A stretch of DNA of 64,000 nucleotides, taken from Rhizobiales bacterium IMCC20636. Its GTDB lineage: Bacteria; Pseudomonadota; Alphaproteobacteria; Rhizobiales; GCA-2746425. Within the stretch, counting starts at the first letter, position 1; the number at the start of each line of letters is the position of its first letter. The notes beneath the pieces are model-generated. The model saw only the letters and a list, made by a program, of their open reading frames with translations, had not been told where the DNA came from and ran no database searches. This document shows positions 11,086 to 25,983 of the stretch, in pieces. The translations under genes and the position numbers were made by a program. The stretch covers positions 4,123,001 to 4,187,000 of the forward strand of contig CP018226.1 of assembly GCA_016865015.1 (NCBI GenBank), in the 5' to 3' direction.

Positions 11086-11195
11086 GCACGTTCGTGTAAC
11101 CGGCCCTGAAACGCCTGACCCGTTTCCTAAGATGATGATCTGCGCTAACACGGACGGCAGACATATCGTCATTGATTCGATTGAAGGTGGGGTTC

Positions 11196-12209
11196 ATGAA
11201 TTTCAAGCGACCGTTTGGCAAATTGGAAGATCGCACCGAGATCAACGAAGTTGAAATCGGCGCAGGCGCATTACGTGCAAAGATACTGACCTGGGGCACT
11301 GTCCTGCGGGATTTGCGACTGGATGGATTTGACCATCCACTGGTACTGGGTTTTGACCGGCTTGAGGATTATACAAATCACTCGCCGTTTTTTGGCGCAA
11401 CTGCGGGGCGCTATGCCAACCGCATCGCCTATGGCCGGTTCCCGCTGGATGGCCGCATGCATCAATTGAGCCAGAATACGGAACCGCATCATTTGCATGG
11501 TGGCCATGCCAGTTTTGGCAAACGACTATGGACCGTGGGCTCGATTGCACCTGATTCCATTCGTCTGACTCTGGTCTCTCCCGATGGCGAGGATGGTTAT
11601 CCCGGCCGGGTGATGGTCAGTTGCACCTACAAGATTGTGCCGCCTGCGTCGCTGCATGTGATTTTTGAAGCAACCACGAATGCGCCAACCTTGATGAATC
11701 TGGCGCATCATTCCTATTTCAATCTGGATGGGTCGCCGGATATTCTAGAGCACTTGCTGCAGATTGAAGCAGATGCCTATACACCGGTCACGCAGGATAT
11801 GATCCCGACCGGAGCCGTGCTGCCGGTAAAGGACACCTTGTTTGATTTCCGCGAGACGCGGCCGGTGCGCACGCTTCATGATGGCCGCCGCATTGCGTTT
11901 GATACAAACTATGTGCTTGCGCTTGCACCACGTCCCCGGCCGGTCCATGCAGCCAGGTTGAGCAGCCCGCGCAATGGATTGTCGATGGATGTTCTGACCA
12001 CAGAGCCCGGCCTGCAATTCTATGACGGGTACAAGCTCAACGTGCCCGTGCCAGGTTTGGACGGACGCACATACGGCGTGAGTGCCGGGCTGTGTCTGGA
12101 GCCACAGCGCTGGCCTGACAGTCCGAACCATCGGCACTTTACGGACTCAACCCTACGGCCAGGCGAAACCTATGTTCAGGAAACCATCTATCGTTTCAAC
12201 ATGTCCTGA
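11196..12209 (+). CDS. Aldose 1-epimerase (galactose mutarotase family)
   Basis: A 337-residue beta-sandwich mutarotase. It shows the substrate and catalytic segments GRYANRI, HHLHGG, the catalytic His in NLAHHSYFNLDG, and the late Glu in GLCLEPQRWPDSPNH. It interconverts alpha and beta anomers of aldoses. ATG 11196 is preferred over upstream TTG 11172 because GGTGGGG lies 6-12 bases ahead of it. The 3' end overlaps the convergent GH116 gene by 22 bp. Together with the SDR it forms a sugar-oxidation pair. Confidence 0.88.
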   Translation: MNFKRPFGKLEDRTEINEVEIGAGALRAKILTWGTVLRDLRLDGFDHPLVLGFDRLEDYTNHSPFFGATAGRYANRIAYGRFPLDGRMHQLSQNTEPHHLHGGHASFGKRLWTVGSIAPDSIRLTLVSPDGEDGYPGRVMVSCTYKIVPPASLHVIFEATTNAPTLMNLAHHSYFNLDGSPDILEHLLQIEADAYTPVTQDMIPTGAVLPVKDTLFDFRETRPVRTLHDGRRIAFDTNYVLALAPRPRPVHAARLSSPRNGLSMDVLTTEPGLQFYDGYKLNVPVPGLDGRTYGVSAGLCLEPQRWPDSPNHRHFTDSTLRPGETYVQETIYRFNMS

Positions 12210-14542
12210 GCCGGGTTAGCCAGTTCCCAGGGTGCTGCATACCAAGCGGCGAGCGGGCGCATGTTCATGGTCGCCCGGAACTTCAATCCGCTTTCCATAT
12301 CTGCCACATCATAAGCGGCGGGTGTGCGGGCAAACATGCCGCGCTGGTAGAGATTGCGGTAAAGCGCCTTGCGGATTTCGTGCCCCTCCTGCTTCAGCCC
12401 CCAGCTTTCCAGTTGCGCGGCGAAGCTGAAGTTGAAGCCGACAATGCTTTCTGAAATCTGGAACGCAATGTGATGATCCGCTTCTACCGCATGTACAGCT
12501 GCTGGCTGCATATTTGCCAGAGTGATAACACCCTCGCCACGTCCGGCTTTTTGAAAGTTTTCGCGGTAGAGTGTTTTCAATGCCAGGACGGCGTGGGTGT
12601 CAGGAACCACAGTTCCAAACCCATAACGCCGCGCCAGAAAAGCGCCGAAGAGCTGCTCTATCAAAAGGCATTGCGAAAACGGGCCGTCCCGGTCCAGTCG
12701 ATAATGCGTGCCCGTCCACAATGCGGTTTCAAAAGCCGCACGCGCTGCGATGGCCTGCTCGTGATAGGCTTTGCCCGCGCCTCTATCTCCAAGCCGATTG
12801 GCTGCTTCCGCCATTGCAAACAGGGCGGCAATCCACAGCCCACCGCAATAGGCGCTGGGGCCTTTCATCGGAATGTTGTCAAAGGTCTGATCCGGAAAGC
12901 CGTCATTTTCGATCAGCCCATCGCCGTCTCTGTCATATTGGTTGAGATGTGCGCAGGCAGCGCGGGCGTGCTCCCAATGATCCCTCAGCCACGGCAAACC
13001 AAAAATCCGCGCATCGCGCACCAGGCCGATCAGGAATTGGGAATTGAGATCTTTCCACTGTGTCGAATCCTGCCAGGCATAGCCATTATTGACGACAAAG
13101 GGGTCTTCGTCCGGACTGCCCTGATCATGGGGCAATGCACCAGCCCGTTTCACAGGGAAGATAGTGTTTGAGCGCATGTGGCGTCGCAACCGGTCATCGT
13201 GCTGCGACACGCTGCAGGCAAAATCATCCATCACCAGACGAGCGGACTGCGGCCAAAGGCGCAGCACGGATTCCGATGCATAAATCCACAAATCAAGAGT
13301 GTTGTAATAGGGATAATCCGGGCATTCGATGATGCCGAAATGGCCTTTATCGGCATCCGTTTCAGCTGTGAAAACCGTCATGCCATCAACCAGCAGATAC
13401 AGCTCGTTCAACATCATGCCGGTGACCTCGGGACGATTTCCAAACTGGGCAGAAATCGTGTCATGCCAGGCATCGATCTGCTGTGACCAATGCTCTGCGC
13501 GCACCAAGGCCTGCTCAACCATCGCAAGTGCGTTGTTGCCGCTTTTGCCCCAAGACTGGGTGTATTTGCGGGCATGGCGACGACCGGACCCGAAGCGAAC
13601 GATCGGCAGATCCCAACTCAGTGCGAAAGTTATGGTTCTGCTTTCACCCGGCGCCAATTCACATTTTGCCGAGACAGCTCCCGCGGGCCGGTTTGTCTCG
13701 ACTTCCTGAAAGCCGGCATCCGCGATCCAGTCGATCGATGGGTCCAGCGTGCCAGTGGCGGAAAAAGAGGGCCAAAAATCGCTGCCATCTGCAGCGGCAT
13801 CAAAGGTTGCGCATTCTGTCAGCACCAGACCGTCATCTCTTGCAACGGATATGGCCATCTGCCCGTCCCCCATATCGGGGGTTTTGGTATTCAGCGAGGC
13901 AGTTTGTCGGTCAAACACAATGCTGTGTGCTGTCTCGTCTGCTACCATTGTGTTGAAGCAACCGGCATGACGCCGATACGGCTTTCCCTTTTCCCGGAAC
14001 GCTCCCACCAGATTGGGGAAATGGAACATCAAGGCTGCCGAAACAGCAGTCTTGGAAGGGTTGTGCAAATGCCATTTGAAGACGGCAACCGGCAGCGTGC
14101 TGGATTCCAGATCGCCCGGAATCAGTGGTGAAAAACTTTCGCAGCGGAACCGGATCGGTCCGGGACATCCGGCATAGTCGTGCCAGGCTTTTGGAAACAG
14201 GGCCGCATACTGGTTGGCCGCTTCTTCCTTGCGCCATGTTGCAGCGGATAGAGAGCCATCTTGCGGGATGGGTTGCAGCATGCAGGAGATCGGGTCTTGC
14301 CCGGCTTGCTGTTGCCACATGGCAAAACCGGCAGATGCTTCATGATGGTGCAGGACCTGTTGCAGGTTCACTGTCCAGCGGGTGAACCGGCCTGATCTGG
14401 ACAACACCATACCGCCGGTTCCAAGGCCGCCGAGTGGCAAGCCGACATCTGAAGTGCCTCCGGTCTGGGTTGAAATTTTTCGTTGCGGTTCAGGACCGGG
14501 CCAGTCCATGGCAGTCCTGAAAGCGGCATCTGAAACACTCAC
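12188..14542 (-). CDS. GH116 family glycosidase (GBA2/beta-glucosidase-like)
   Basis: A 784-residue protein with the two-domain GH116 layout: an N-terminal beta domain starting at GGTSDVGLPLGGLGTGG and a C-terminal (alpha/alpha)6 domain. The likely nucleophile Glu lies in GIIECPDYPYYNTLD, and the acid/base Asp in ENDGFPDQTFD. The family includes bacterial beta-glucosidases and beta-xylosidases and the human glucosylceramidase GBA2. The GTG start at 14542 has AGGAG 6 bases upstream and overlaps the EamA stop (GTGA). No signal peptide is seen, so it acts in the cytoplasm on imported glycosides. Confidence 0.87.
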   Translation of the reverse strand: MSVSDAAFRTAMDWPGPEPQRKISTQTGGTSDVGLPLGGLGTGGMVLSRSGRFTRWTVNLQQVLHHHEASAGFAMWQQQAGQDPISCMLQPIPQDGSLSAATWRKEEAANQYAALFPKAWHDYAGCPGPIRFRCESFSPLIPGDLESSTLPVAVFKWHLHNPSKTAVSAALMFHFPNLVGAFREKGKPYRRHAGCFNTMVADETAHSIVFDRQTASLNTKTPDMGDGQMAISVARDDGLVLTECATFDAAADGSDFWPSFSATGTLDPSIDWIADAGFQEVETNRPAGAVSAKCELAPGESRTITFALSWDLPIVRFGSGRRHARKYTQSWGKSGNNALAMVEQALVRAEHWSQQIDAWHDTISAQFGNRPEVTGMMLNELYLLVDGMTVFTAETDADKGHFGIIECPDYPYYNTLDLWIYASESVLRLWPQSARLVMDDFACSVSQHDDRLRRHMRSNTIFPVKRAGALPHDQGSPDEDPFVVNNGYAWQDSTQWKDLNSQFLIGLVRDARIFGLPWLRDHWEHARAACAHLNQYDRDGDGLIENDGFPDQTFDNIPMKGPSAYCGGLWIAALFAMAEAANRLGDRGAGKAYHEQAIAARAAFETALWTGTHYRLDRDGPFSQCLLIEQLFGAFLARRYGFGTVVPDTHAVLALKTLYRENFQKAGRGEGVITLANMQPAAVHAVEADHHIAFQISESIVGFNFSFAAQLESWGLKQEGHEIRKALYRNLYQRGMFARTPAAYDVADMESGLKFRATMNMRPLAAWYAAPWELANPAQDMLKR

Positions 14543-15465
14543 CGATATCTCCTGCGATACAGGGTATAGACATGCGGCAGCATGACACCAGCGATGATGA
14601 TTGTCATGCCAATCCAATCAAACAGGCGGGGGACATCACCCAGAATGATGATTGCGGCAACGGACCCGAGAACGGGACTCAAGGCCGCATAGATCGATAC
14701 CCAGGCCACCTGTAGATGTCGCAATGCGAAATTGAATATCGCATAATTCAACACCGTCATGGCCAGCACCAGATACGCCATTGCAAAGATTTGAAGGGGC
14801 GTACCCAGCACGATGGCAGACAAGGTGTTGGTCGCCAGTGCCAGACAGAAAACTGCGATCAGAGCACCTGTGACTTGGAGGGTTGCCACCTGAAACCAGG
14901 GCACATCCCCACTGTTCATTCTTCGACCAATGATCTGACTGAAACTGGCGCACATGACGGCTAACAACACCAATGCATTGCCGATCAAATCCCCCTCGCC
15001 TGCCGCTTCCCGACTGAGACTGACGATGAGCAGACCGCCAAACCCGATACAACTGCCAATCGCCAGCGACCAATGGGCGTTTTCCCGCAAGATCAGATAG
15101 CCGAGAGCTGAGGCTATCAGCGGTAACAGTCCCCACATCAGAGCCAAAGAAACACCGTCTGTTCTGGCACCTCCATGGATACTCAATGCCAAAACCGCAC
15201 CCGGCGCCATAATGCCCCACAGCAGGGTTTTCCCGAAACGCCGGTTGAGGGTCGGGAGCTGATGTCGGGCAAGACAGATTGCCCACATAATCAAAGTGGC
15301 TCCGAAAAACTGCCACAGGAGGACAGTTGTCGGTGCGAAATCAACCACCAAAGTTTGCTGCAGCATGAAGCCGCTCGAAAAAATTGCAACTGAGGAAAGC
15401 TGCGCCAGATGCGCAAGCAAAATACATCTTTGGGTCGTGCGTTCGTCCAAAATCAATCCACCCAA
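14539..15465 (-). CDS. DMT superfamily transporter, EamA family
   Basis: A 308-residue integral membrane protein with ten predicted hydrophobic segments in two EamA halves (the second around QVTGALIAVFCLALAT to IIIAGVMLPHVYTLY). Members are exporters or metabolite permeases. The start is uncertain: TTG 15465 or TTG 15450, the latter with GGTGGA upstream. It is the first gene of an operon with the GH116 enzyme, divergent from the TRAP operon. The shared 23-base operator candidate lies directly upstream, so it may be in the same regulon and could export a catabolic end product. Confidence 0.85.
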   Translation of the reverse strand: MGGLILDERTTQRCILLAHLAQLSSVAIFSSGFMLQQTLVVDFAPTTVLLWQFFGATLIMWAICLARHQLPTLNRRFGKTLLWGIMAPGAVLALSIHGGARTDGVSLALMWGLLPLIASALGYLILRENAHWSLAIGSCIGFGGLLIVSLSREAAGEGDLIGNALVLLAVMCASFSQIIGRRMNSGDVPWFQVATLQVTGALIAVFCLALATNTLSAIVLGTPLQIFAMAYLVLAMTVLNYAIFNFALRHLQVAWVSIYAALSPVLGSVAAIIILGDVPRLFDWIGMTIIIAGVMLPHVYTLYRRRYR

Positions 15466-15492: not shown

Positions 15493-15594
15493 CTGTTAGG
15501 GTCATGGAAGGGAAGAAATAAATTGACCGCAGCGGCGGTATCGTCTTGCATAATGAGGTCCGGTGAGGATCGGTGGGGCGTTGCAGGGGGAAGC

Positions 15595-16149
15595 ATGATG
15601 GCAGCCTTGACTGGCTTTATAGCATTTCTGACGCGAATCAATGACGCAGTCTTCTGGGTTGGCAGACAACTCTCATGGATGGCAATCGGGGTGATGGTTT
15701 TGATCATCCTTGCTCAGGTATTTGCGCGCTATATCCTCAATGATGCCCTGCCATGGTCTGAAGAACTGGCCCGCGTCCTGATGTTGTGGTTGACCGGATT
15801 GATGGCGCCATCGGCCTATCGCTGGGGTGCCTTTGTTGCAATCGACATGTTTCGAGACCTGCTGCCGCGCTGGCCGCGCGCGATTCTGACCCTCTGTCTG
15901 TTTGGCATTTCACTGATCGTGCTGATCGTGCTGACCTATTATGGCTGGAAACACATCAATAGCGGCTGGTTGTTCGGCTCGGCCACTTTGAAAATCAAAC
16001 TGGCCTGGGTTTACATGGCGCTTCCTGTCGGATTCCTGTTGATGATTTCGGCCTGTATCGAGCTGATTGCCAAGGAAATACATGAGGCGCTTGATCCCGA
16101 TGTCAAATATATGTCCGGCGATAACACGCCAGAATTTGTCGCGGAGTAA
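15595..16149 (+). CDS. TRAP transporter small permease subunit (DctQ type)
   Basis: A 184-residue protein with four membrane segments (first about MAIGVMVLIILAQVFARYIL) and the DctQ signature LPWSEELARVLMLWLT. It is the small membrane subunit of a tripartite ATP-independent periplasmic transporter. The start is placed at ATG 15595 with AGGGGG upstream; the open frame extends further but has no support. The large subunit follows after 5 bp and the binding protein after that. Confidence 0.92.
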   Translation: MMAALTGFIAFLTRINDAVFWVGRQLSWMAIGVMVLIILAQVFARYILNDALPWSEELARVLMLWLTGLMAPSAYRWGAFVAIDMFRDLLPRWPRAILTLCLFGISLIVLIVLTYYGWKHINSGWLFGSATLKIKLAWVYMALPVGFLLMISACIELIAKEIHEALDPDVKYMSGDNTPEFVAE

Positions 16150-16154
16150 AGCCC

Positions 16155-17492
16155 ATGCTTGTGTTGTTCCTGCCTCTCTTTCTGGTGCTTTTGATGATCG
16201 GCCTGCCGGTGTTTTTCGGCCTGCTGTTTGCGCCCGGTTTTCTGCTTTGGATGAATGGACAGGAGCGCGATCTGGCGCTGCTCTACCGCAACGTCTTCAA
16301 CGGCATTGACTCCTTTCCATTGATGGCCATTCCGTTCTTCATGCTGGCCGGTGAAATGATGAACCGCGGCGGTATCACCATGCGCCTGGTGGAGTTCAGC
16401 CAGTCGATGATGGGGCATTTCCGGGGCGGCCTTGCCCATGTCAATATTCTGTCCTCCATGTTGTTTGCCGGGCTGTCCGGTTCGGCGGTGGCTGACACCT
16501 CGGCACTGGGGTCGATGCTGATTCCTGCCATGGAAAAACAGGGCTATACGCGCCGTTTTGCGGCTGCCATTACTGCGGCTTCGTCAGTCATTGGGCCAAT
16601 CATCCCACCCTCGGGCATCATGATCATTTACGCCTATGTGATGGGCGAGTCGGTTGCAGCGCTGTTTTTGGCAGGAATAGTTCCGGGCATTCTGGTGGGG
16701 GTCGGCCTGATGGTTGTGACCGGCATGATGGCACAGCGCTACAATTATCCGGTCGCCAGCGAGCGCGCCAATTGGGGGCAACGCTGGCAAGCGCTGGTCA
16801 AGGCGTTTTTCCCGCTGCTGACGCCCGTCATCATTCTTGGCGGCATTCTGGGCGGCGTGATGACACCGACCGAAGCTTCTGCAGTTGCCGCAGCCTATGC
16901 GTTCTTTGTCGGCATGTTCCTGTTGAAGACGATCAGTTTCAAAGACCTTCCTTCAATCCTGACCAAGGCCGCACTCACCTCGTCGGTTGTACTGTTGCTG
17001 GTCGGAGCGGCGATGGCTTTCAAAACCGTGGTCAGCCTGTCCCGCGCCCCTGAAGCACTTGCAGAAATGATCCTGACCCTGTCCAGCGATCCGTTGATGT
17101 TGCTGTTTCTGATCAATATCCTGCTGTTCATCGTCGGCATGTTTCTGGATGCCGGTCCCGCGATCATCATTCTGGGGCCAATCCTTGGACCGATCTTCAT
17201 CAATATGGGCATTGATCCCGTTCACTTTGCGATCATCATGAGCGTCAACCTGACAGTTGGCCTGGCAACACCGCCGATGGGGCTGGTGTTGTTTGTTGCC
17301 TCAAGCGTCTCCGGCGAGAAGGTTGAGGCTATCTCAAGGGCGATCCTGCCATTCCTTGCTGTTGAAGTTGTTGTAATTTTTCTGATCACCTATTTTCCGG
17401 TAATCTCCATGGGCGTGCCATGGCTGACCGGGTTCGTGTCGCCGGATTCCGATCTTTTGGGACCGGTTCTGAGACTGTTTTTCGGCAGCTAG
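16155..17492 (+). CDS. TRAP transporter large permease subunit (DctM type)
   Basis: A 445-residue membrane protein of about 12 segments, the ion-coupled channel subunit of a TRAP transporter. Typical stretches are FPLMAIPFFMLAGEMMNRGG, SGSAVADTSALGSMLIP and the second-repeat counterpart MLFLINILLFIVGMFLDAG. It is directly downstream of the DctQ gene and upstream of the binding protein, in the order Q-M-P. Its substrate is set by the binding protein, probably the monosaccharide or glycoside processed by neighbouring enzymes. Confidence 0.95.
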   Translation: MLVLFLPLFLVLLMIGLPVFFGLLFAPGFLLWMNGQERDLALLYRNVFNGIDSFPLMAIPFFMLAGEMMNRGGITMRLVEFSQSMMGHFRGGLAHVNILSSMLFAGLSGSAVADTSALGSMLIPAMEKQGYTRRFAAAITAASSVIGPIIPPSGIMIIYAYVMGESVAALFLAGIVPGILVGVGLMVVTGMMAQRYNYPVASERANWGQRWQALVKAFFPLLTPVIILGGILGGVMTPTEASAVAAAYAFFVGMFLLKTISFKDLPSILTKAALTSSVVLLLVGAAMAFKTVVSLSRAPEALAEMILTLSSDPLMLLFLINILLFIVGMFLDAGPAIIILGPILGPIFINMGIDPVHFAIIMSVNLTVGLATPPMGLVLFVASSVSGEKVEAISRAILPFLAVEVVVIFLITYFPVISMGVPWLTGFVSPDSDLLGPVLRLFFGS

Positions 17493-17572: not shown

Positions 17573-18661
17573 ATGAAACTCAAATCCTTACTGTCAACCT
17601 TCGCGGCTTTGGCCGTTGGAGCCGCCTTTATGGGCAGCGGCATAATATCCGATGCTCAGGCCGCTTCGCATGCCGAGAAAATCACTTTGCGTGCAACTGC
17701 CAATTCCAACGAAAATGATGAAGACTATGATGGTCTGGTCGTTTTCAAGAACTATGTTGAAAACGCATCCAATGGTGCCATAGCGGTTGATTTGTTCATC
17801 GGCACTCAATTGTGCTCGAAAGGCGCTGAATGTCTGCAGGGCATCGCAGACGGATCGATTGATATCTACATCTCGACATCTGGCGGTGCCGCTGGCATCT
17901 TCCCGTATGTGCAGGTGCTTGATCTGCCTTATCTGCTGCGTGATGACCGTATTGCCGAAGAAGTTCTGCAGGGTGACTTCGTGCGCCAGATGCGTGCCCA
18001 GATGCTGGCCGATTCCGGTGACACCATTCGCCTGATGACAATTGGCAACACCGGTGGCTGGCGGAACTTTGCCAACACACAGCGTCCCATTCAGAAACCT
18101 TCCGATATGAAGGGTCTGAAAATTCGGACCGTGGTGGCTGACCTGCCGCAGGAACTGGTCAAGGCACTGGGTGCCAGCCCGACGCCAATTCCCTGGCCTG
18201 AACTTTTCACATCCTTTCAGACTGGAGTTGTTGAAGGGTCGAAAAACGGCATCACCGATGTCATGGGCATGAAGTTCCCGGATGCCGGCCTGCAGTATAT
18301 GACACTTGATGGCCATGCTTACATGGGCGCGTTGTGGTTCATGAACAATGATCGTTTCATGAGCATGGACGAAGGCATGCGCCGCGTCATCGTTGACGGT
18401 TTCGCAGCCTTGCAACAGGCAACCTTTGCCTCACCGAAGCGTAAATCCATTGCCGCCTATGAAGAATTTGTCGCCGGTGGCGGCAACCTTTATGTGCCGA
18501 CCCCTGAAGAAAAAGCCATGTTCCGGGACGCAGCAGCGCCTGTGTTCGACTGGTTCAAGAGCAATATTCGTGAAGGCGAAACCTTCTATCAGGCTCTGGT
18601 TGAAGCCGCAGCGGATGCTGAAGCTAAAATCGATGGTGCCGCAATGATGGATGTCAAATAG
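17573..18661 (+). CDS. TRAP transporter substrate-binding protein (DctP family)
   Basis: A 362-residue secreted protein with a signal peptide of about 31 residues ending in DAQAAS. The DctP fold is recognisable from ITLRATANS, the GLKIRT segment whose Arg binds the ligand acid group in most family members, ALGASPTPIPWPELFTSFQTGVVEG, and the C-terminal helices. Retention of that Arg suggests an acidic ligand, although sugar-specific TRAP proteins exist. A strong terminator follows at 18716. Confidence 0.94.
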   Translation: MKLKSLLSTFAALAVGAAFMGSGIISDAQAASHAEKITLRATANSNENDEDYDGLVVFKNYVENASNGAIAVDLFIGTQLCSKGAECLQGIADGSIDIYISTSGGAAGIFPYVQVLDLPYLLRDDRIAEEVLQGDFVRQMRAQMLADSGDTIRLMTIGNTGGWRNFANTQRPIQKPSDMKGLKIRTVVADLPQELVKALGASPTPIPWPELFTSFQTGVVEGSKNGITDVMGMKFPDAGLQYMTLDGHAYMGALWFMNNDRFMSMDEGMRRVIVDGFAALQQATFASPKRKSIAAYEEFVAGGGNLYVPTPEEKAMFRDAAAPVFDWFKSNIREGETFYQALVEAAADAEAKIDGAAMMDVK

Positions 18662-18715
18662 TCCAGTCGCCAAAAACTGACGGACCTTGCGGTCCGGCAT
18701 GCCAAACCTGAATCA

Positions 18716-18750
18716 GGCCGCTTCGACACAATGTTGAAGCGGCCTTTTTT
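18716..18750 (+). terminator. Rho-independent terminator of the TRAP operon
   Basis: A 9-bp stem GGCCGCTTC/GAAGCGGCC with an 11-base loop is followed by six T residues. A smaller hairpin CGGACC-TTGC-GGTCCG lies just upstream at 18681-18696. The next gene is on the other strand. Confidence 0.93.
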
Positions 18751-19367: not shown

Positions 19368-19390
19368 GAGTCTTGTAAAAGACATAAGAC
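19368..19390. promoter_or_regulatory. Shared operator candidate, copy 2 (kinase operon promoter)
   Basis: Identical over 23 bases to 15470-15492, with GTCTTgtaaAAGAC plus atAAGAC. It ends 64 bp before the kinase start. Downstream TTGATTAGGAT is also similar to the other copy. The repetition at two promoters of functionally related operons is the main evidence for regulation. Confidence 0.75.
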
Positions 19391-19454
19391 TTGATTAGGA
19401 TTGAAAACGGGCAAAACAATGCCCAATCCACACCCTGAATTTCGGGAACAATTC

Positions 19455-20387
19455 ATGGCCACGGTCATCACACTTGGCGTTGCAGTGCAGGATTTTGTCT
19501 TTTCCGTAGATGAAATGCCGACTGAGCCACGCAAATACAGAGCAAAAGATCTTGCGGTCATCGGTGGTGGATGCGGCGCAACCGCTGCTGTGGCTGTGGC
19601 ACGTCTGGGCGGTGATAGCCGTCTGATCTCCCGGCTTGGGAATGACATGACGGCCCAGATCATCATCGGCGAGCTTGAAGCTGACGGCGTCGACTGTTCC
19701 GGCATGAAACGCTTTGAGGGCTACAAATCGTCTCTGTCAGCGATCATGGTCGACAGCAGCGGCGAGCGGCTGGTCATGGGCTTTCGCGACGATGCAATGC
19801 CGACGGATCCGGGTTTTGTGGCAGATCATTTTGCAACGGTAGAAACAGCAGATGTGGTGCTGGCCGACAGCCGATGGGCCGAAGGTGCGTTGCGCCTGTT
19901 TGAATTGGCGAACGCCAAGGGCATTCCAGCGGTTCTGGACGGCGAGATGCCGTTTGGTGATACAGAACGTAAAGCGGCACGCCTGGCGACGCACCCGGTT
20001 TTCTCGGCTCAGGGGCTGCAAGACCATACGCATGAAACCGAGCTTCTGACCGGATTGCTGGCGGCCAGCGCCATGCGCGAAGGCCGCTGGACTGCCGTGA
20101 CCGACGGACCCAATGGCGTCTATGTTGCGCGCAATGGCAGGCTCAGCCGATTGCCCGGACACCAGATCGATGTGGTCGACACACTCGGAGCCGGTGATGT
20201 GTGGCATGGGGCTTTTGCCCTTGCCTTGGCGGAACGCCAGAGCGACGAGGATGCAATGATATTCGCCTCCGGCGCTGCCGCCCTGAAATGCACCCAGTTT
20301 GGCGGCCGGAAAGGCACGCCGACCCGGCAGGCACTTAACAAATTTATTCAATCACACCCACTCCAGATGGAGCCTATCTCCTTATGA
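19455..20387 (+). CDS. PfkB family carbohydrate kinase, YihV (sulfofructose kinase)-like
   Basis: A 310-residue ribokinase-fold kinase with the catalytic GAGD motif (Asp248, VVDTLGAGDVWHGA). It aligns throughout with E. coli YihV: PTExxKYxAK (22-31), GGGxxATAAVAxARLG (37-52), SAIMVD (95-100), LADxRW (136-141) and the C-terminal ASGxAALKCT. Lys27 and Arg140 match YihV Lys27 and Arg138, which I recall as sulfonate ligands; the third, Asn109, is not conserved (Gly109 here). It probably phosphorylates a ketose at C1. ATG 19455 is preferred; ATG 19419 is possible. The stop overlaps the aldolase start (ATGA). Confidence 0.85.
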   Translation: MATVITLGVAVQDFVFSVDEMPTEPRKYRAKDLAVIGGGCGATAAVAVARLGGDSRLISRLGNDMTAQIIIGELEADGVDCSGMKRFEGYKSSLSAIMVDSSGERLVMGFRDDAMPTDPGFVADHFATVETADVVLADSRWAEGALRLFELANAKGIPAVLDGEMPFGDTERKAARLATHPVFSAQGLQDHTHETELLTGLLAASAMREGRWTAVTDGPNGVYVARNGRLSRLPGHQIDVVDTLGAGDVWHGAFALALAERQSDEDAMIFASGAAALKCTQFGGRKGTPTRQALNKFIQSHPLQMEPISL

Positions 20388-21439
20388 CACATTCACTTTC
20401 CGCCGGTAAATTATGGGGCCTGCGCCGGATGGCCGATGCTCAGGGCCGTTTTAAAATGCTTGCCGTCGATCAGCGTCCGCCCATCAAGAACCCGATCGCC
20501 AAACATTATGGCACCGCAGAAGCGCCTTACAAGGATGTCACCAAATTCAAGCTGATGCTTCTTGAAGAACTGCAGAGCAGTTCAACAGCGATGTTGCTGG
20601 ACCCCCATTTTGCCCTGCCCAAGGGCCTGCGCATGATCGACCCGACGAACGGTCTGATCGTGACGCTGGAAGATTCTCTGTTCGAAGAGACTGATGGCGG
20701 GCGCATGTCAGCTGAAATTGACAATTGGAGTGTTGAGAAAATCAAGCGCGTCGGCGGTGACGCGGTCAAGGTTCTCGCCTGGTATCGCCCGGATGCGTCG
20801 CCCCAAGTGTGTCAGGCGCAGAAAGACTTCACCAAGCGTATTGGTGATGCCTGTGCCCGTTTTGATATTCCGTTTCTGTTTGAACTGCTGGTCTATCCAC
20901 TGCCCGATGATGCGCATCAAACCAAGGATTATGTGGAGATGCAGGGCAAGGATTCAGCCCATGTGCTGGAGAGCGTCGCCGAGTTTGCTCATGCGGATTA
21001 TGGCGTTGACGTTTTCAAGCTGGAAAGCCCTGTCAGTGCCGCTGTTGCCGCCGGAAACGGATCAATGGGGGCTGACGCCGTTCAGGCTCTGTTTGATGAA
21101 ATGGGGCGCCTGTCAGCGCGGCCATGGGTGATGTTGTCGGCTGGTGCCGACAAGGCTGCATTTACAAAGATTCTCGGCCATGCCTATCAAGCCGGTGCAT
21201 CGGGATATCTGGCAGGACGGGCTATCTGGCTGGATGCCTTTGGAGCGTTTCCGGACTGGGATGCTGTGCGTGCCGGATTGCAGTCCGATGCTGTTCCGTA
21301 CATGCAGTCGATCAACACCTTGACCGACACAGAGGCACTTCCCTGGTTTGATCATGCACGCTTTGGCGGGACAACAGGGCCGAATTTTGCTATTGAAGAT
21401 GACGATGCAAATTTCCGGACCTCATACTCCGGCTTTTAA
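20384..21439 (+). CDS. Class I aldolase, YihT/LacD family
   Basis: A 351-residue (beta/alpha)8 aldolase. The start region FKMLAVDQR matches YihT and LacD. The Schiff-base lysine is Lys212 (VFKLESPV, equivalent to YihT Lys193), and GASGYLAGRAIW carries Arg279, equivalent to YihT Arg253. It should split a ketose 1-phosphate or bisphosphate into DHAP and an aldehyde. The protein is about 60 residues longer than YihT, mostly at the C-terminus. It is coupled to the kinase by a 4-base overlap and followed by the isomerase after 11 bp. Confidence 0.85.
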   Translation: MTHSLSAGKLWGLRRMADAQGRFKMLAVDQRPPIKNPIAKHYGTAEAPYKDVTKFKLMLLEELQSSSTAMLLDPHFALPKGLRMIDPTNGLIVTLEDSLFEETDGGRMSAEIDNWSVEKIKRVGGDAVKVLAWYRPDASPQVCQAQKDFTKRIGDACARFDIPFLFELLVYPLPDDAHQTKDYVEMQGKDSAHVLESVAEFAHADYGVDVFKLESPVSAAVAAGNGSMGADAVQALFDEMGRLSARPWVMLSAGADKAAFTKILGHAYQAGASGYLAGRAIWLDAFGAFPDWDAVRAGLQSDAVPYMQSINTLTDTEALPWFDHARFGGTTGPNFAIEDDDANFRTSYSGF

Positions 21440-21450
21440 GGGGTTTCCGC

Positions 21451-22836
21451 ATGTCCAGCATTGGTGTTCTGGCCCTCGGCCGCCCCACATTTGATGTCGC
21501 GTTTGCAGAACAATTGCTGGCCGAAGCGCGCGTCGAACTGCTGGCAAGTGGCCATGAGATTATCGGCGGCGAAACATTACTGTTTGACGCCGATGCGACA
21601 GTGTCGGCGCTGGACGATCTGAAATCCCGCAAGCTGGACCTTGTTCTGATCCTGCAGGTAACCTTTACCGATTCCAGCATGACGGTGCGGATCGCCAGTG
21701 AATTGAATGCGCCTCTGGCGCTGTGGGCGTTTCCGGAACCGCGTCTCGGCGGACGGTTGCGGTTGAATGCATTTTGTGGCCTGAACCTTGCCGCGCATGC
21801 GTTAGGTTTGAATAACACTGCATATTCCTATGCCTATTCCGCACCATCGGAAACAGATGTAAAGGCTTTGCTGAAGGACTTTCTGTCCGGCAAACGCCAG
21901 GCTTCGCCCCGGTTTGGCGAAGATGTCACCGCTGATACGAGTGCCGTGCGCGCTGCCATTGATCGTCTTAAAGGGAAGCGCATCGGTCGTATTGGAGAGC
22001 GTCCCGAAGGGTTTGCGACCTGTCGTTATAACCCTAAGACCGTCGAACGGCTGACCGGCGTGACCATTGATGAAATCACACTTGATAATTTGTTCCAGTC
22101 GGCCCGCAAGGTGCCTGCCGAAACCATATCCAAAAGCCGGAAGACGGTGTCTGGCCTTGGCGGCCTTGCAGACGTTGATCAACCGCAACTGGATCGGTCA
22201 CTGGCTTTGCATGGCGCGTTGCAAACCATGCAGAAAAGTCAGGACTACAGTGCATTTGCCATTCGTTGCTGGCCAGAGACTTTTACCGAATATGGTGGTG
22301 CCATCTGCGGACCAGTGGGCATGATGGGAGAAGCCAAAGTACCATGCGCCTGCGAAGCCGATGTCTATGGTGCCCTGACGAACCTGCTTGTTCAGGAACT
22401 AACCGGTCTTCCACCGTTTCTGGTTGATCTGGTCGATCTGGATGAGGCCAGCGACACCGGCGTGGTCTGGCATTGTGGCCAGGCCCCGATATCGATGTGT
22501 GATCCGGAGTTCGAGGCTCGGGCGAGCATTCACTCCAACCGGAAAATGCCGCTGCTGTTCGAATTTCCATTGAAACCGGGGCGGGTGACGCTTGCGCGCA
22601 TCAGTCAAGCGCGGGGCAAGCAAAGCCTGTTTCTGGCAACCGGAGACATGCAGACAGCACCACTGGCTTTTTCCGGAACAGCTGGCGTCATGAAATTTGA
22701 TGCTGGCGTCAGGACAACTCTCAAAGCTGTGATGGATGCCGGACTGGAACACCACACGACCCTCGCCTATGGCGATCATGCGGAAGCATTGACGGCAGCG
22801 GCCAGCGCTCTCGGTCTTCCTGTGATCATGGTTTGA
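21451..22836 (+). CDS. L-fucose/L-arabinose isomerase-like sugar isomerase
   Basis: A 461-residue protein of the COG2407 type. The metal and catalytic region is visible in IRCWPETF, CACEADVYGALT (Glu302), LVDLDEASDTGVVWHCG (Asp331 region) and the late GLEHHTTLAYGDH. The family interconverts aldoses and ketoses with a divalent metal; sulfoquinovose isomerases of some Gram-positive pathways also belong here, as I recall. In this operon it would supply the ketose to the kinase. The exact substrate is not identified. Confidence 0.82.
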   Translation: MSSIGVLALGRPTFDVAFAEQLLAEARVELLASGHEIIGGETLLFDADATVSALDDLKSRKLDLVLILQVTFTDSSMTVRIASELNAPLALWAFPEPRLGGRLRLNAFCGLNLAAHALGLNNTAYSYAYSAPSETDVKALLKDFLSGKRQASPRFGEDVTADTSAVRAAIDRLKGKRIGRIGERPEGFATCRYNPKTVERLTGVTIDEITLDNLFQSARKVPAETISKSRKTVSGLGGLADVDQPQLDRSLALHGALQTMQKSQDYSAFAIRCWPETFTEYGGAICGPVGMMGEAKVPCACEADVYGALTNLLVQELTGLPPFLVDLVDLDEASDTGVVWHCGQAPISMCDPEFEARASIHSNRKMPLLFEFPLKPGRVTLARISQARGKQSLFLATGDMQTAPLAFSGTAGVMKFDAGVRTTLKAVMDAGLEHHTTLAYGDHAEALTAAASALGLPVIMV

Positions 22837-22847
22837 AGGAGACCGGG

Positions 22848-24953
22848 ATGAGTGCTCTTCCGCAAATCACCAAGATTGATGACGCCGTTCCGTTTGATGT
22901 TCTGAACCCCAATTGGAGTGCCTGCCGCCAGACGGAAATACTGGGCGCAGCCACCATCGTGTCGCCGGGGCAATTGATCCTCGACACGACCGATGGCCCG
23001 TTCCAGATCACGACGCTGGAGAACGGAGTCCGGTTGAGTCTGGGTCCACAAGACAAACCGGATTACGGTATTCTGGATGGCGACCCGGCCCCCTTTCCGG
23101 CGGAGGTGACCCAGGCTGATGGCCAAACCACCATCAGTTGGGGCTGGTTTACACTGACCGTGCGGCACCATCCGATGGCGATTGATTTCCACAGATGGGA
23201 CCGCCCCATTCTGGAATCAGCCCGCGATGGACATTTCGTGCGTGAGTTCCGCCTTCCTCCCTTTGCACGTGTCGACAAGGGCTGGCTGGTCAATTTCGAT
23301 CTGACCAGCCAGGACCCGGTTTATGGACTTGGCGAAAAATGGGGTCCGCTGGACAAGCGTGGGCAACTTGTCCACTCCTTTACTCATGACGCTTTGGGTG
23401 TGAATTCGGAGCGATCCTACAAAAACTGCCCATTTGCCTGGTCGCCGGCAGGCTGGGGCATTTTCGTTCATACGCCCGCACCGGTTTTGCATGCGATCGG
23501 CTTCTCGCAATGGTCACACCGATCCTATGGGCTGCTGGTGGAGGATGAAGCTCTCGATCTCTTCCTCATAGCCGGCAAGACACCGGAGCGCATACTCGAA
23601 CGCTACACGCGCCTGACCGGACGTCCCGTCATGCCACCGCTCTGGAGCCTTGGGGCGATCTTGTCGAAAGCCTATTACCAGACGCCGTCCGAGTTTCTGG
23701 AAGCTGCCCGCACTGTGCGCAGCTACGGGATGCCTTGCGACACGATCACATTTGACGGCCGCGCCTGGCAGGACACGGATACACGGTTCCATTTCGATTT
23801 CGACCCGAAGCGGTTCGACGATCCCAAGGCGGTGATTGATCAGGTCAAGGAGATGGGGTTCCATGTGTGCTGCTGGGAATATCCTCTGGTTTCGGTCAAC
23901 AGCCCGATATATGAAGAGTTAAGCGAGAAAGGCTACTTTCTGACGGACCGGCGCACTGACCTGCCCTATCGCTATGAATGGGATATGGAGCCCTTTGGCC
24001 AGGTGCTGACGCCGTTGCCGGATTCCAGCCTGATCGATTTCACCAATCCGGCTGCCTATGAGTGGTGGCGTGATCAGCACAAGGACCTGTTCGCGCTGGG
24101 CGTCGATATGATCAAGAGTGATTTTGGTGAGCAGGTAGAGCCAGACTGCAAGGCCTTCAATGGCGACACTGGCCACAGACTGCACAATGTCTATCCGCTG
24201 CTGTATAACAAATGCGTCTATGAGGCCTCGGAAATGTATTCGGCGGACGGCGCTTGTCTTCTGGCGCGCGCGGGCTGGGCCGGTTCCCAGCGCTATCCGG
24301 CCCAATGGGGCGGTGATCCACAGGCCGACTGGGAAGGACTGGCCGCATCGTTGCGTGGCGGTTTGTCCTGGGCCAATTCAGGCGCTGCCTGTTATGCGAC
24401 GGATATTGGTGGCTTTTACGGCGATACACGTGATGCAGAATTGTTCGTGCGCTGGACTCAGGCGGCGGTCTTCTCATCCCATATGCGGTTCCACGGCATT
24501 GGTGACCGCGCACCATGGTCTTATGGGGACCGCGCGGCCAATGCGGTTATGGCTGCGCTGAAACTGCGCTACAGATTGCTGCCCTATCTTTGGAAGGCTT
24601 TGAAGCAAGCCTGTGAAACCGGCCTGCCTGTCCAGCGTCCCATGGCGGTGGCCTTTCCAGACGACCCGGCGGCCTGGGGCTTTGAACTGCAATTCATGTT
24701 CGGGGCTGATATTCTGGTCTCCCCGATCGTGCGGGCACACGGCATTGGCAAGACCTATCTGCCTGCTGGCAACTGGCGTCATCTAGTGACGCATGAGCTT
24801 ATTGCCGGTGGCCGGGTCATCAATCATCAACTTGATCTGGAAAGCATGGCCGTTTATGTGCAAGAAGGAGCAACAATTGCTTTTGGTCCTGCTGTTCAGC
24901 ATACAGGACAGATCGGGGATATTCCTCTGATTGAGGAAACCTGCAAGTATTGA
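22848..24953 (+). CDS. GH31 family alpha-glycosidase, YicI-like
   Basis: A 701-residue cytoplasmic enzyme with N-terminal beta domain, catalytic barrel and C-terminal beta domain. The nucleophile is Asp425 (MIKSDFGE) and the acid/base Asp490 (AQWGGD), both in YicI-like context, as are SLRGGLS and DIGGFYGDT. The YicI specificity pair Cys307-Phe308 is replaced by Gly304-Arg305 (TFDGRAW), and a second Arg follows at 313. This suggests a substrate with a polar or charged C5/C6 group rather than xylose. ATG 22848 has AGGAG 7 bases upstream. It is the last gene of the kinase-aldolase-isomerase operon. Confidence 0.9.
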   Translation: MSALPQITKIDDAVPFDVLNPNWSACRQTEILGAATIVSPGQLILDTTDGPFQITTLENGVRLSLGPQDKPDYGILDGDPAPFPAEVTQADGQTTISWGWFTLTVRHHPMAIDFHRWDRPILESARDGHFVREFRLPPFARVDKGWLVNFDLTSQDPVYGLGEKWGPLDKRGQLVHSFTHDALGVNSERSYKNCPFAWSPAGWGIFVHTPAPVLHAIGFSQWSHRSYGLLVEDEALDLFLIAGKTPERILERYTRLTGRPVMPPLWSLGAILSKAYYQTPSEFLEAARTVRSYGMPCDTITFDGRAWQDTDTRFHFDFDPKRFDDPKAVIDQVKEMGFHVCCWEYPLVSVNSPIYEELSEKGYFLTDRRTDLPYRYEWDMEPFGQVLTPLPDSSLIDFTNPAAYEWWRDQHKDLFALGVDMIKSDFGEQVEPDCKAFNGDTGHRLHNVYPLLYNKCVYEASEMYSADGACLLARAGWAGSQRYPAQWGGDPQADWEGLAASLRGGLSWANSGAACYATDIGGFYGDTRDAELFVRWTQAAVFSSHMRFHGIGDRAPWSYGDRAANAVMAALKLRYRLLPYLWKALKQACETGLPVQRPMAVAFPDDPAAWGFELQFMFGADILVSPIVRAHGIGKTYLPAGNWRHLVTHELIAGGRVINHQLDLESMAVYVQEGATIAFGPAVQHTGQIGDIPLIEETCKY

Positions 24954-24981
24954 ACCTCGCCAAACTCTAATGAGGCCTGTC

Positions 24982-25983
24982 ATGAGATTTGCCACCAGAA
25001 TTCACCGTTTCTGCATGGCAATACTGGTTCTTCTTTTATTTTCAACGCATGTATCGGCGCAAGGCACGCGCCCGATTTCCACTTTGCGCATCGGCGTGGT
25101 GGTGGGTGACAATCTGAGCTACACATTGCGGCGGATGGAGCCGTTTCGGCTTTATCTGGAAGACCGCCTCAATCGCCGGGTTACCATCGAGGGCACTCAC
25201 AGTTTCCAAAATCTGATGGAGGTACATGCGCAAGGGCGAATTCACTACGCCATCTATTCCGCTTCAGCCTATGCAAGAGCCTGGGCCAGTTGCCGATGCC
25301 TGGTACCGCTTGCAGCTCCCAAATCTCCTGGCGGTGGACACGGGATGTATTCCGTGCTGCTGGTGGCGGCTGATACCAATTTTCATTCTCTCGATGATCT
25401 GAATAACCAGCGTGTCCTGTACACCTCTCCTTCGACACTGGCCGGGCACCTGATACCAGCCAGAGCCATGTCCTTGCTGAGCGGCCAGGAACGGTTTGTG
25501 TTTGCCGATGCGGATATGGCGCGTAACGCCACAGCCGGTCTGGAAGCTCTTAAATCGGGAACTGCCGATGGTGTGTTTGCCTGGGAGGGAGAGGAAGGGG
25601 TTCAGCGCGGGACGGTCGCATCAGCCGAAAAAAGAGGGCTGATAGAGCCCGGATTCACACGAACTGTCTGGCGCTCAGCGCTGTTGCCACATGGGCCACA
25701 TGCTGTCTTGAAAGACCTTCCGGAGAATCTGATCAGAGATCTGCGGGCAGCGTTGATCAGTCTTGACCCAACGGATGATAGTATTGCGCTCAATGTTCAA
25801 AGCACCGTGACATCCAACAACAACCAGCAGGTGTTTGAGACCGGTTTCACCGCCGCGGACATTCTGCATTCAATCGACAGCATGTTTGGTGGAGGGTTCA
25901 CCCCGGTTGACCATTATGACTATCTGCCCGTGCTGAATGTGCTGGGGTGGGGTACGGAGAACAAAGTGCCTGCCTGGCCCTGA
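24982..25983 (+). CDS. PhnD-like phosphate/phosphonate-type periplasmic binding protein
   Basis: A 333-residue protein with a signal peptide (MRFATRIHRFCMAILVLLLF, cleavage near VSAQG) and a PhnD-type fold starting LRIGVVVGDNLSYTLRRMEPF. The start ATG 24982 has TGAGG upstream; ATG 24970 is possible. No permease or ATPase gene is nearby. Instead it converges with a membrane sensor-like protein, so a ligand-sensing partner role is more likely than transport. It lies only 28 bp after the GH31 gene and may be read through from that operon. Confidence 0.78.
   Translation: MRFATRIHRFCMAILVLLLFSTHVSAQGTRPISTLRIGVVVGDNLSYTLRRMEPFRLYLEDRLNRRVTIEGTHSFQNLMEVHAQGRIHYAIYSASAYARAWASCRCLVPLAAPKSPGGGHGMYSVLLVAADTNFHSLDDLNNQRVLYTSPSTLAGHLIPARAMSLLSGQERFVFADADMARNATAGLEALKSGTADGVFAWEGEEGVQRGTVASAEKRGLIEPGFTRTVWRSALLPHGPHAVLKDLPENLIRDLRAALISLDPTDDSIALNVQSTVTSNNNQQVFETGFTAADILHSIDSMFGGGFTPVDHYDYLPVLNVLGWGTENKVPAWP

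Follow-up and report, generated by a model that had tools for sequence, protein, structure and literature searches.

A probable hybrid sulfo-Embden-Meyerhof-Parnas operon for sulfoquinovose in an alphaproteobacterium, and its GH31 glycosidase from a distinct clade related to YicI

Which sugar is degraded by a compact operon that joins a YihV-like kinase to a class I aldolase, a fucose-isomerase-like isomerase and a glycosidase of family GH31? The operon (19455-24953, plus strand) lies in a window of 64 kb, by which we mean the whole stretch of DNA analyzed here (C1:4123001-4187000 of an alphaproteobacterial host genome of 4.79 Mb in a single contig). The four genes are coupled, as the original prediction had it: all are on the plus strand, and their reading frames overlap or nearly abut. 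The kinase frame (19455-20387) overlaps the aldolase frame (20384-21439) by 4 bp, a gap of 11 bp separates the latter from the isomerase frame (21451-22836), and the GH31 frame, which starts at 22833 or 22848, ends at 24953. Their products fall into the Pfam families PfkB, DeoC/LacD, Fucose_iso_C and GH31. Two options had been proposed, a variant sulfoglycolysis and a DHAP-forming route for another C6-modified hexose. We favor the first because sister clusters carry GH188, sulfolactaldehyde (SLA) dehydrogenase-like, SlcC, ComC, SuyAB, ComDE or Hps genes, and because the host has SuyAB-SlcC-ComC. The operon is most probably a hybrid sulfo-Embden-Meyerhof-Parnas (sulfo-EMP) cluster for sulfoquinovose (SQ), a sulfur-containing sugar found in the membranes of plants and algae. 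Sulfoglycolysis as such is well supported by the genomics; from the same material we infer the substrate, the direction of the route, the specificity of the transporter, the activity of the GH31 enzyme and the use of genes outside the operon.

The kinase more likely starts at ATG 19455 than at TTG 19401, and counted from the former its lysine is Lys27. It had been said to align with YihV along its length, and among solved structures YihV (PDB 7ag6) is indeed its closest homologue (40% identity; E = 1.8e-58, residues 21-317). Likewise as claimed, the alignment sets Lys and Arg against YihV K27 and R138 and Gly against N109, three residues that we take to be sulfonate ligands; the Gly counts against the SQ reading. 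We aligned 13 cluster kinases with YihV, Agrobacterium 2RBC and the PfkB paralogues of the host's own genome. Lys27 and Arg138 are kept in 12/12 close cluster kinases and both are lost in the paralogues; the Asn109 column is variable (N, G, A and others). The prediction had been staked on the kinase not falling among unrelated PfkB groups, and both the alignment and a tree place it with YihV, which stands among the cluster kinases and apart from the paralogues, in a topology with few well-supported inner branches. Because 2RBC also keeps Lys27 and Arg138, however, the pair marks a wider YihV-like group and is not proof of specificity for sulfofructose (SF).

The aldolase had been described as of the YihT type, with its Lys and Arg in place. 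The residues are there, since the Schiff-base Lys (in DVFKLE) and the Arg of AGRAIW are both conserved, but the subfamily is that of LacD. The protein scores 331 bits against the LacD-like NCBIfam model PRK12858 (cut-off 184) and 315 bits against PDB 8tnf, but no more than 69 bits against YihT, and so stands much closer to LacD/PRK12858. This greater likeness to tagatose-bisphosphate aldolases than to YihT counts against SQ as the substrate.

For the isomerase, the assignment to the COG2407 type agrees with its membership of PF02952. Its sole NCBIfam match is SftI, a sulfoquinovose isomerase, at 269 bits over the full length. That this model alone matches favors the SQ reading; the score, far below the equivalog cut-off of 700 bits, speaks against it. 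Because searches with the single sequence and with a profile found no solved relative, we used a fold model. The AlphaFold2 model, of good quality (pLDDT 87, pTM 0.89), has the fold of L-arabinose and L-fucose isomerases, which fits the account of SqvD as a FucI relative within PF02952 (PMC9594981).

Much of the case for a sulfonated substrate comes from sister clusters. Isomerase relatives at E < 1e-80 occur in 6 of the 385 sampled alphaproteobacterial genomes besides the host, the weakest (L033) having 34% identity, and relatives were also found on 11 named contigs besides one (L016) whose locus ends early; reading frames of the GC-rich loci were called with codon scoring. Directly 3' of the isomerase, 12 alphaproteobacterial loci (L006-L010, L012-L015, L028-L030) have a gene for a Gfo/Idh/MocA protein, and the more distant L033 likewise has GH188. 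One member was compared with solved structures (the gene shared by L020 and L030), and it came nearest to 8zn9, 8qc3 and 8qc2; the two 8qc entries are NAD-dependent sulfoquinovosidases (GH188). The sulfonate-binding residues of GH188, R166, L170 and K172 (PMC10755693, PMC11465081), correspond to the motif EHRFPFLxK in all 12 loci and to EHREPFLVK in L033, and R...L.K together with EKCCHF is kept in 13/13 sister GH188 proteins.

Genes for the handling of sulfolactate or DHPS often accompany them. SuyB-SlcC-ComC is found in L006 and L008, and L015 has the end of SuyB with SlcC-ComC; L028-L030 carry SlcC and an SSADH/SLA dehydrogenase-like gene; L028 and L033 encode ComDE-like split TPP proteins; and histidinol-dehydrogenase-like (HpsN), SDR and ADH genes occur in L009 and L012-L014, the Hps and Com assignments being made from Pfam domains and gene order. 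Against the SQ reading, L009, L010 and L012-L015 have no kinase homologue beside the aldolase and isomerase. Outside the Alphaproteobacteria, plasmid pDEIPE01 of Deinococcus peraridilitoris carries, consecutively, an ABC transporter, an isomerase (27%), a PfkB kinase, a LacD-type aldolase and a GH31 (47%), with a SlaB-like gene near the cluster; its kinase has diverged, with no lysine in the column of Lys27.

Within the 64-kb window, searches for homologues of SLA dehydrogenase, SuyB, ComC and GH188 found none, consistent with the earlier remark that no SLA reductase or dehydrogenase is encoded here. Elsewhere, at C1:502214-506570 (8215-12571 of L050), the host has intact homologues of GntR-SuyA-SuyB-SlcC-ComC, about 1.15 Mb from the operon if the contig is circular; the SuyB gene (C1:503456-504607) is 82% identical to the in-cluster SuyB of L006. 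An apparent stop ('1 TAG') in the host ComC match was considered as a defect and rejected, the 331-aa reading frame being open. A genome search for an SLA dehydrogenase, as the original prediction proposed, gave a SlaB/GabD-like aldehyde dehydrogenase (C1:1245671-1247119; 76% identity to the in-cluster copy of L029) with the WNF tripeptide and both arginines (equivalents of Arg171 and Arg289) that have been proposed to bind SLA in Rhizobium GabD. Because such residues are common to ordinary SSADH, the assignment to this step is only suggestive. The location of the SLA dehydrogenase and SuyAB genes outside the operon counts against the SQ reading.

Upstream of the enzymes, on the same strand, Pfam identifies a TRAP transporter consisting of DctQ (small permease, 15523-16149), DctM (large permease, 16155-17492) and DctP (solute-binding protein, 17573-18661), which we predict to take up SQ or its glycosides, DctP being the putative binder of SQ or SQGro. 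An isethionate-binding DctP (8t9t) is among the solved relatives of the latter, and TRAP homologues lie near the operon in sister clusters L005-L008, L011, L028-L030 and L032. A terminator-like hairpin 3' of the TRAP genes (18715-18745, plus strand; a stem of 14 pairs with a run of T after it, identified by consensus match only) suggests that transporter and enzyme genes may form separate transcripts. Farther upstream is an aldose 1-epimerase gene (Pfam Aldose_epim; 11172-12209, plus strand), possibly for an SQ mutarotase. A galM homologue is found within or close to most sister clusters and directly 3' of GH188 in L007 and L028-L030. On the other side, a gene for a PhnD-like binding protein (24931-25983) flanks the operon.

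Taken together, these genes could support the following route. An SQ glycoside would enter through the TRAP transporter, and the GH31 enzyme would release SQ from alpha-glycosides of the SQ-glycerol type. The isomerase, by family a fucose isomerase and putatively of the SqvD/SftI type, would act as a metal-dependent enzyme converting SQ to SF; the YihV-type kinase, a predicted 6-deoxy-6-sulfofructose 1-kinase, would phosphorylate SF to SF 1-phosphate, and the LacD-type aldolase would cleave this to DHAP and SLA. The SlaB/GabD-like dehydrogenase encoded elsewhere would then oxidize SLA to sulfolactate, which SlcC and ComC may racemize and SuyAB may desulfonate to pyruvate and sulfite; these genes are present, and their link to the operon is presumed. 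Because sulfolactate would be desulfonated to pyruvate, all six carbons of SQ would be usable.

The GH31 protein had been called YicI-like rather than YihQ-like, and YicI is in fact its nearest solved and characterized relative; that it lacks a characterized close homologue counts against the SQ reading. The catalytic Asp pair is kept. In the columns of YihQ R301, W304 and Y508, presumably sulfonate-binding residues, the window protein has D, F and F, in a loop where the alignment is uncertain by 2-3 residues. The columns of YicI C307, F308 and W315, which we take to surround the -1 subsite close to C5/C6 and to set xylose specificity, hold G, (R)A and R in the clade to which the window protein belongs. 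Two arginines at this subsite would suit an anionic group at C6. The resulting motif, DGRAW...TR, is found in 10/10 aligned alphaproteobacterial members and in the Deinococcus protein, and is missing from YicI, YihQ-type and other GH31 proteins compared. Among the 385 genomes the clade has eight members at at least 50% identity to the window protein, after which identity drops to 40% and then to ~30%. In five loci (the window, L005, L011, L031 and L032) its gene stands directly 3' of the isomerase, the slot that GH188 occupies in other clusters; it also adjoins SDR and enolase-like genes (L101). No GH188 orthologue was found in the host genome, where the best match, at 29% identity, was rejected as a GH188.

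It could be argued that the route is sulfoglycolytic but can dispense with the GH31, which would then be a conventional alpha-xylosidase or alpha-glucosidase. The affinity to YicI and the unmatched YihQ residues are consistent with this, but the replaced pocket residues, the restricted motif and the shared slot argue otherwise, as does co-occurrence. Either GH188 or the GH31 clade is present in 7/7 isomerase-positive genomes versus 29/378 others (p = 3.5e-8, ignoring relatedness among genomes); no other finding speaks more strongly for placing the GH31 in the sulfoquinovosidase slot. SuyB occurs in 6/8 genomes with the clade versus 28/377 (p = 7.6e-6, a value that overstates the independence of related genomes), and even where the isomerase is absent it accompanies the clade in 4/5 genomes, again related ones (p = 2.4e-4). 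Two further comparisons over the 385 genomes were null: the GH31 clade and GH188 coincide in 0/8 where ~0.6 would be expected, which alone is not significant, and GH188 shows no association with SuyB (p = 0.23). On balance, an ordinary glycosidase seems rather unlikely. We lean, with some reserve, toward the view that the DGRAW...TR clade represents a third kind of sulfoquinovosidase with an origin of its own, a retaining, YicI-related enzyme whose C5/C6 pocket gained two arginines. On this view it would serve the hybrid sulfo-EMP clusters of Alphaproteobacteria and Deinococcus as well as further sulfosugar clusters from which the isomerase is absent.

A second possibility is that the operon serves another sulfosugar, such as sulfofucose or a differently linked sulfoglycoside, and still yields SLA. 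In its favor, LacD-type aldolases have relaxed stereochemistry at C4. Moreover, the sulfofucose cluster of Paracoccus wurundjeri has a PfkB/PF01791 pair, and the SDR and enolase-like neighbors of the GH31 clade recall its sulfofucose route; however, the P. wurundjeri kinase and aldolase are not induced on sulfofucose (PMC12421959), the window kinase is nearest to SF kinase, and sister clusters place a GH188 sulfoquinovosidase with an intact sulfonate site ahead of the same pathway. We consider this alternative improbable. Still less probable is a DHAP-forming route for a non-sulfonated C6-modified hexose such as a 6-deoxyhexose or uronate: the LacD-like and fucose-isomerase-like families do serve ordinary sugars, and none of the genes in the window is unambiguously specific to sulfonates, but sister clusters repeatedly carry GH188, SuyAB, SlcC, ComC, ComDE and Hps-type genes, the host has SuyAB-SlcC-ComC and the kinase keeps K27 and R138.

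If SQ is the substrate, one bacterium would take it to sulfite without excreting a C3 sulfonate. The GH31 assignment would have a practical consequence as well. Surveys of genomes and metagenomes recognize SQ-degrading clusters by their sulfoquinovosidase genes (PMC10755693), and a sulfoquinovosidase annotated as 'alpha-xylosidase YicI' would hide such clusters from them. The motif and the GH31/GH188 swap form a directly testable prediction.

How new is such a system? Its upper pathway mixes enzymes of sulfo-EMP and sulfo-EMP2, and hybrids of this kind are already known, in Yersiniaceae (PMC9594981), in Vibrio (PMC13372026) and, reportedly, across Proteobacteria and Actinobacteria (PMC12890257). 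Actinobacterial 'Y160' clusters with a fucose isomerase, SF kinase, SFP aldolase, SLA dehydrogenase and SuyAB have, moreover, been flagged as a possible new sulfoglycolysis (PMC11465081). Thus, the upper pathway is a variant of documented hybrids, and the GH31 clade is the most novel part of the system. The literature searched, in which subscription papers are thinly covered, held no account of TRAP-linked SQ uptake, the DGRAW...TR clade or the Deinococcus cluster.

Compared with the sulfo-EMP pathway of Escherichia coli (YihQ-YihR-YihS-YihV-YihT-YihU), the operon shares the predicted intermediates, a YihV-family kinase and a class I aldolase, but has a fucose-isomerase-type enzyme instead of YihS, an aldolase of LacD type, a GH31 other than YihQ and no YihU; its route would end in sulfolactate and SuyAB, where that of E. 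coli ends in DHPS export. With sulfo-EMP2 of Bacillus urumqiensis (SqvD-SqiK-SqiA) it probably shares an isomerase of the SqvD/SftI family (PMC9594981), whereas its kinase is PfkB (PF00294) rather than SqiK (PF00365) and its aldolase class I (PF01791) rather than class II SqiA (PF01116). The predicted steps are essentially those of the 'Y160' clusters (PMC11465081), here in Alphaproteobacteria, with GH31 for GH188, TRAP for ABC uptake and the downstream genes unlinked. The GntR-SuyA-SuyB-SlcC-ComC set is that of the extended sulfoglycolysis/SuyAB route of Paracoccus and Chromohalobacter, but lies outside the operon. Finally, the glycosidase shares its family and catalytic Asp pair with YihQ and its domain plan with YicI, its closest characterized relative, yet it differs from the former in the three unmatched residues and in carrying DGRAW...TR within a YicI-like frame, and from the latter in the replacement of C307, F308 and W315 and the addition of two arginines.

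Two features around the window operon invite comparison with L005, a close relative. On one side, a GH116-family glycosidase gene (window 12188-14617, minus strand) sits between galM, the aldose 1-epimerase gene, and EamA. Because galM and EamA adjoin in L005, with no GH116 gene between them, this gene was either gained by the window or lost from L005. On the other side, a gene for a PhnD-like binding protein of the phosphonate/phosphate type (window 24931-25983, plus strand) overlaps the end of the GH31 gene, a position that among the sister clusters it shares only with L005; no transporter partner was seen adjoining the window copy.

In five GH188-type clusters, a gene for a MauG-type di-haem cytochrome c peroxidase (L006 3915-5237, L008 5605-7290, L028 6547-8295, L029 6768-8069 and L030 6258-7973) lies upstream of the kinase gene, which follows it directly in L008 and L028-L030. 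The window operon has no such gene. Six loci (L009, L010 and L012-L015) combine aldolase, isomerase and GH188 with no kinase homologue nearby; either another kinase is used or the kinase is unlinked.

The GH31 clade also extends beyond the sister loci. Within Deinococcota, pDEIPE01 of Deinococcus peraridilitoris (L108 3337-14061) has a candidate sulfoquinovose cluster, in which ABC transporter, isomerase, kinase, aldolase and GH31 genes are accompanied by one that is SlaB-like. In L101 (8688-17932) a GH31-clade gene lies next to ABC transporter genes with 56-63% identity to those of the GH188-aldolase-isomerase clusters; SDR, enolase-like and GntR/FCD genes complete what is possibly a sulfosugar Entner-Doudoroff cluster.

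Plasmids hold other candidates. On Zymomonas mobilis pZZM402 (L109 128-11361), an isomerase (41% to the window isomerase) is encoded along with a class II aldolase, an epimerase, a GH188-like protein with EHRFPFLKK, a TonB receptor and SSADH; no kinase was seen in this stretch, which looks like a further sulfosugar cluster. A Candidatus Chlorohelix plasmid (L110 2419-18268) combines SSADH, nitrite/sulfite reductase, sirohaem, PFK (PF00365), SlcC-like and threonine-synthase-like genes with an isomerase gene (35%; 343 bits to the sulfoquinovose isomerase model SftI), and may be sulfo-EMP2-like with sulfite reduction. Finally, a Rhizobium plasmid cluster (L111 8076-18787), with a YihV-like kinase (44% to YihV), LacD-type aldolase, SDR, enolase-like, TSUP transporter and sulfatase genes, resembles the Paracoccus sulfofucose cluster.
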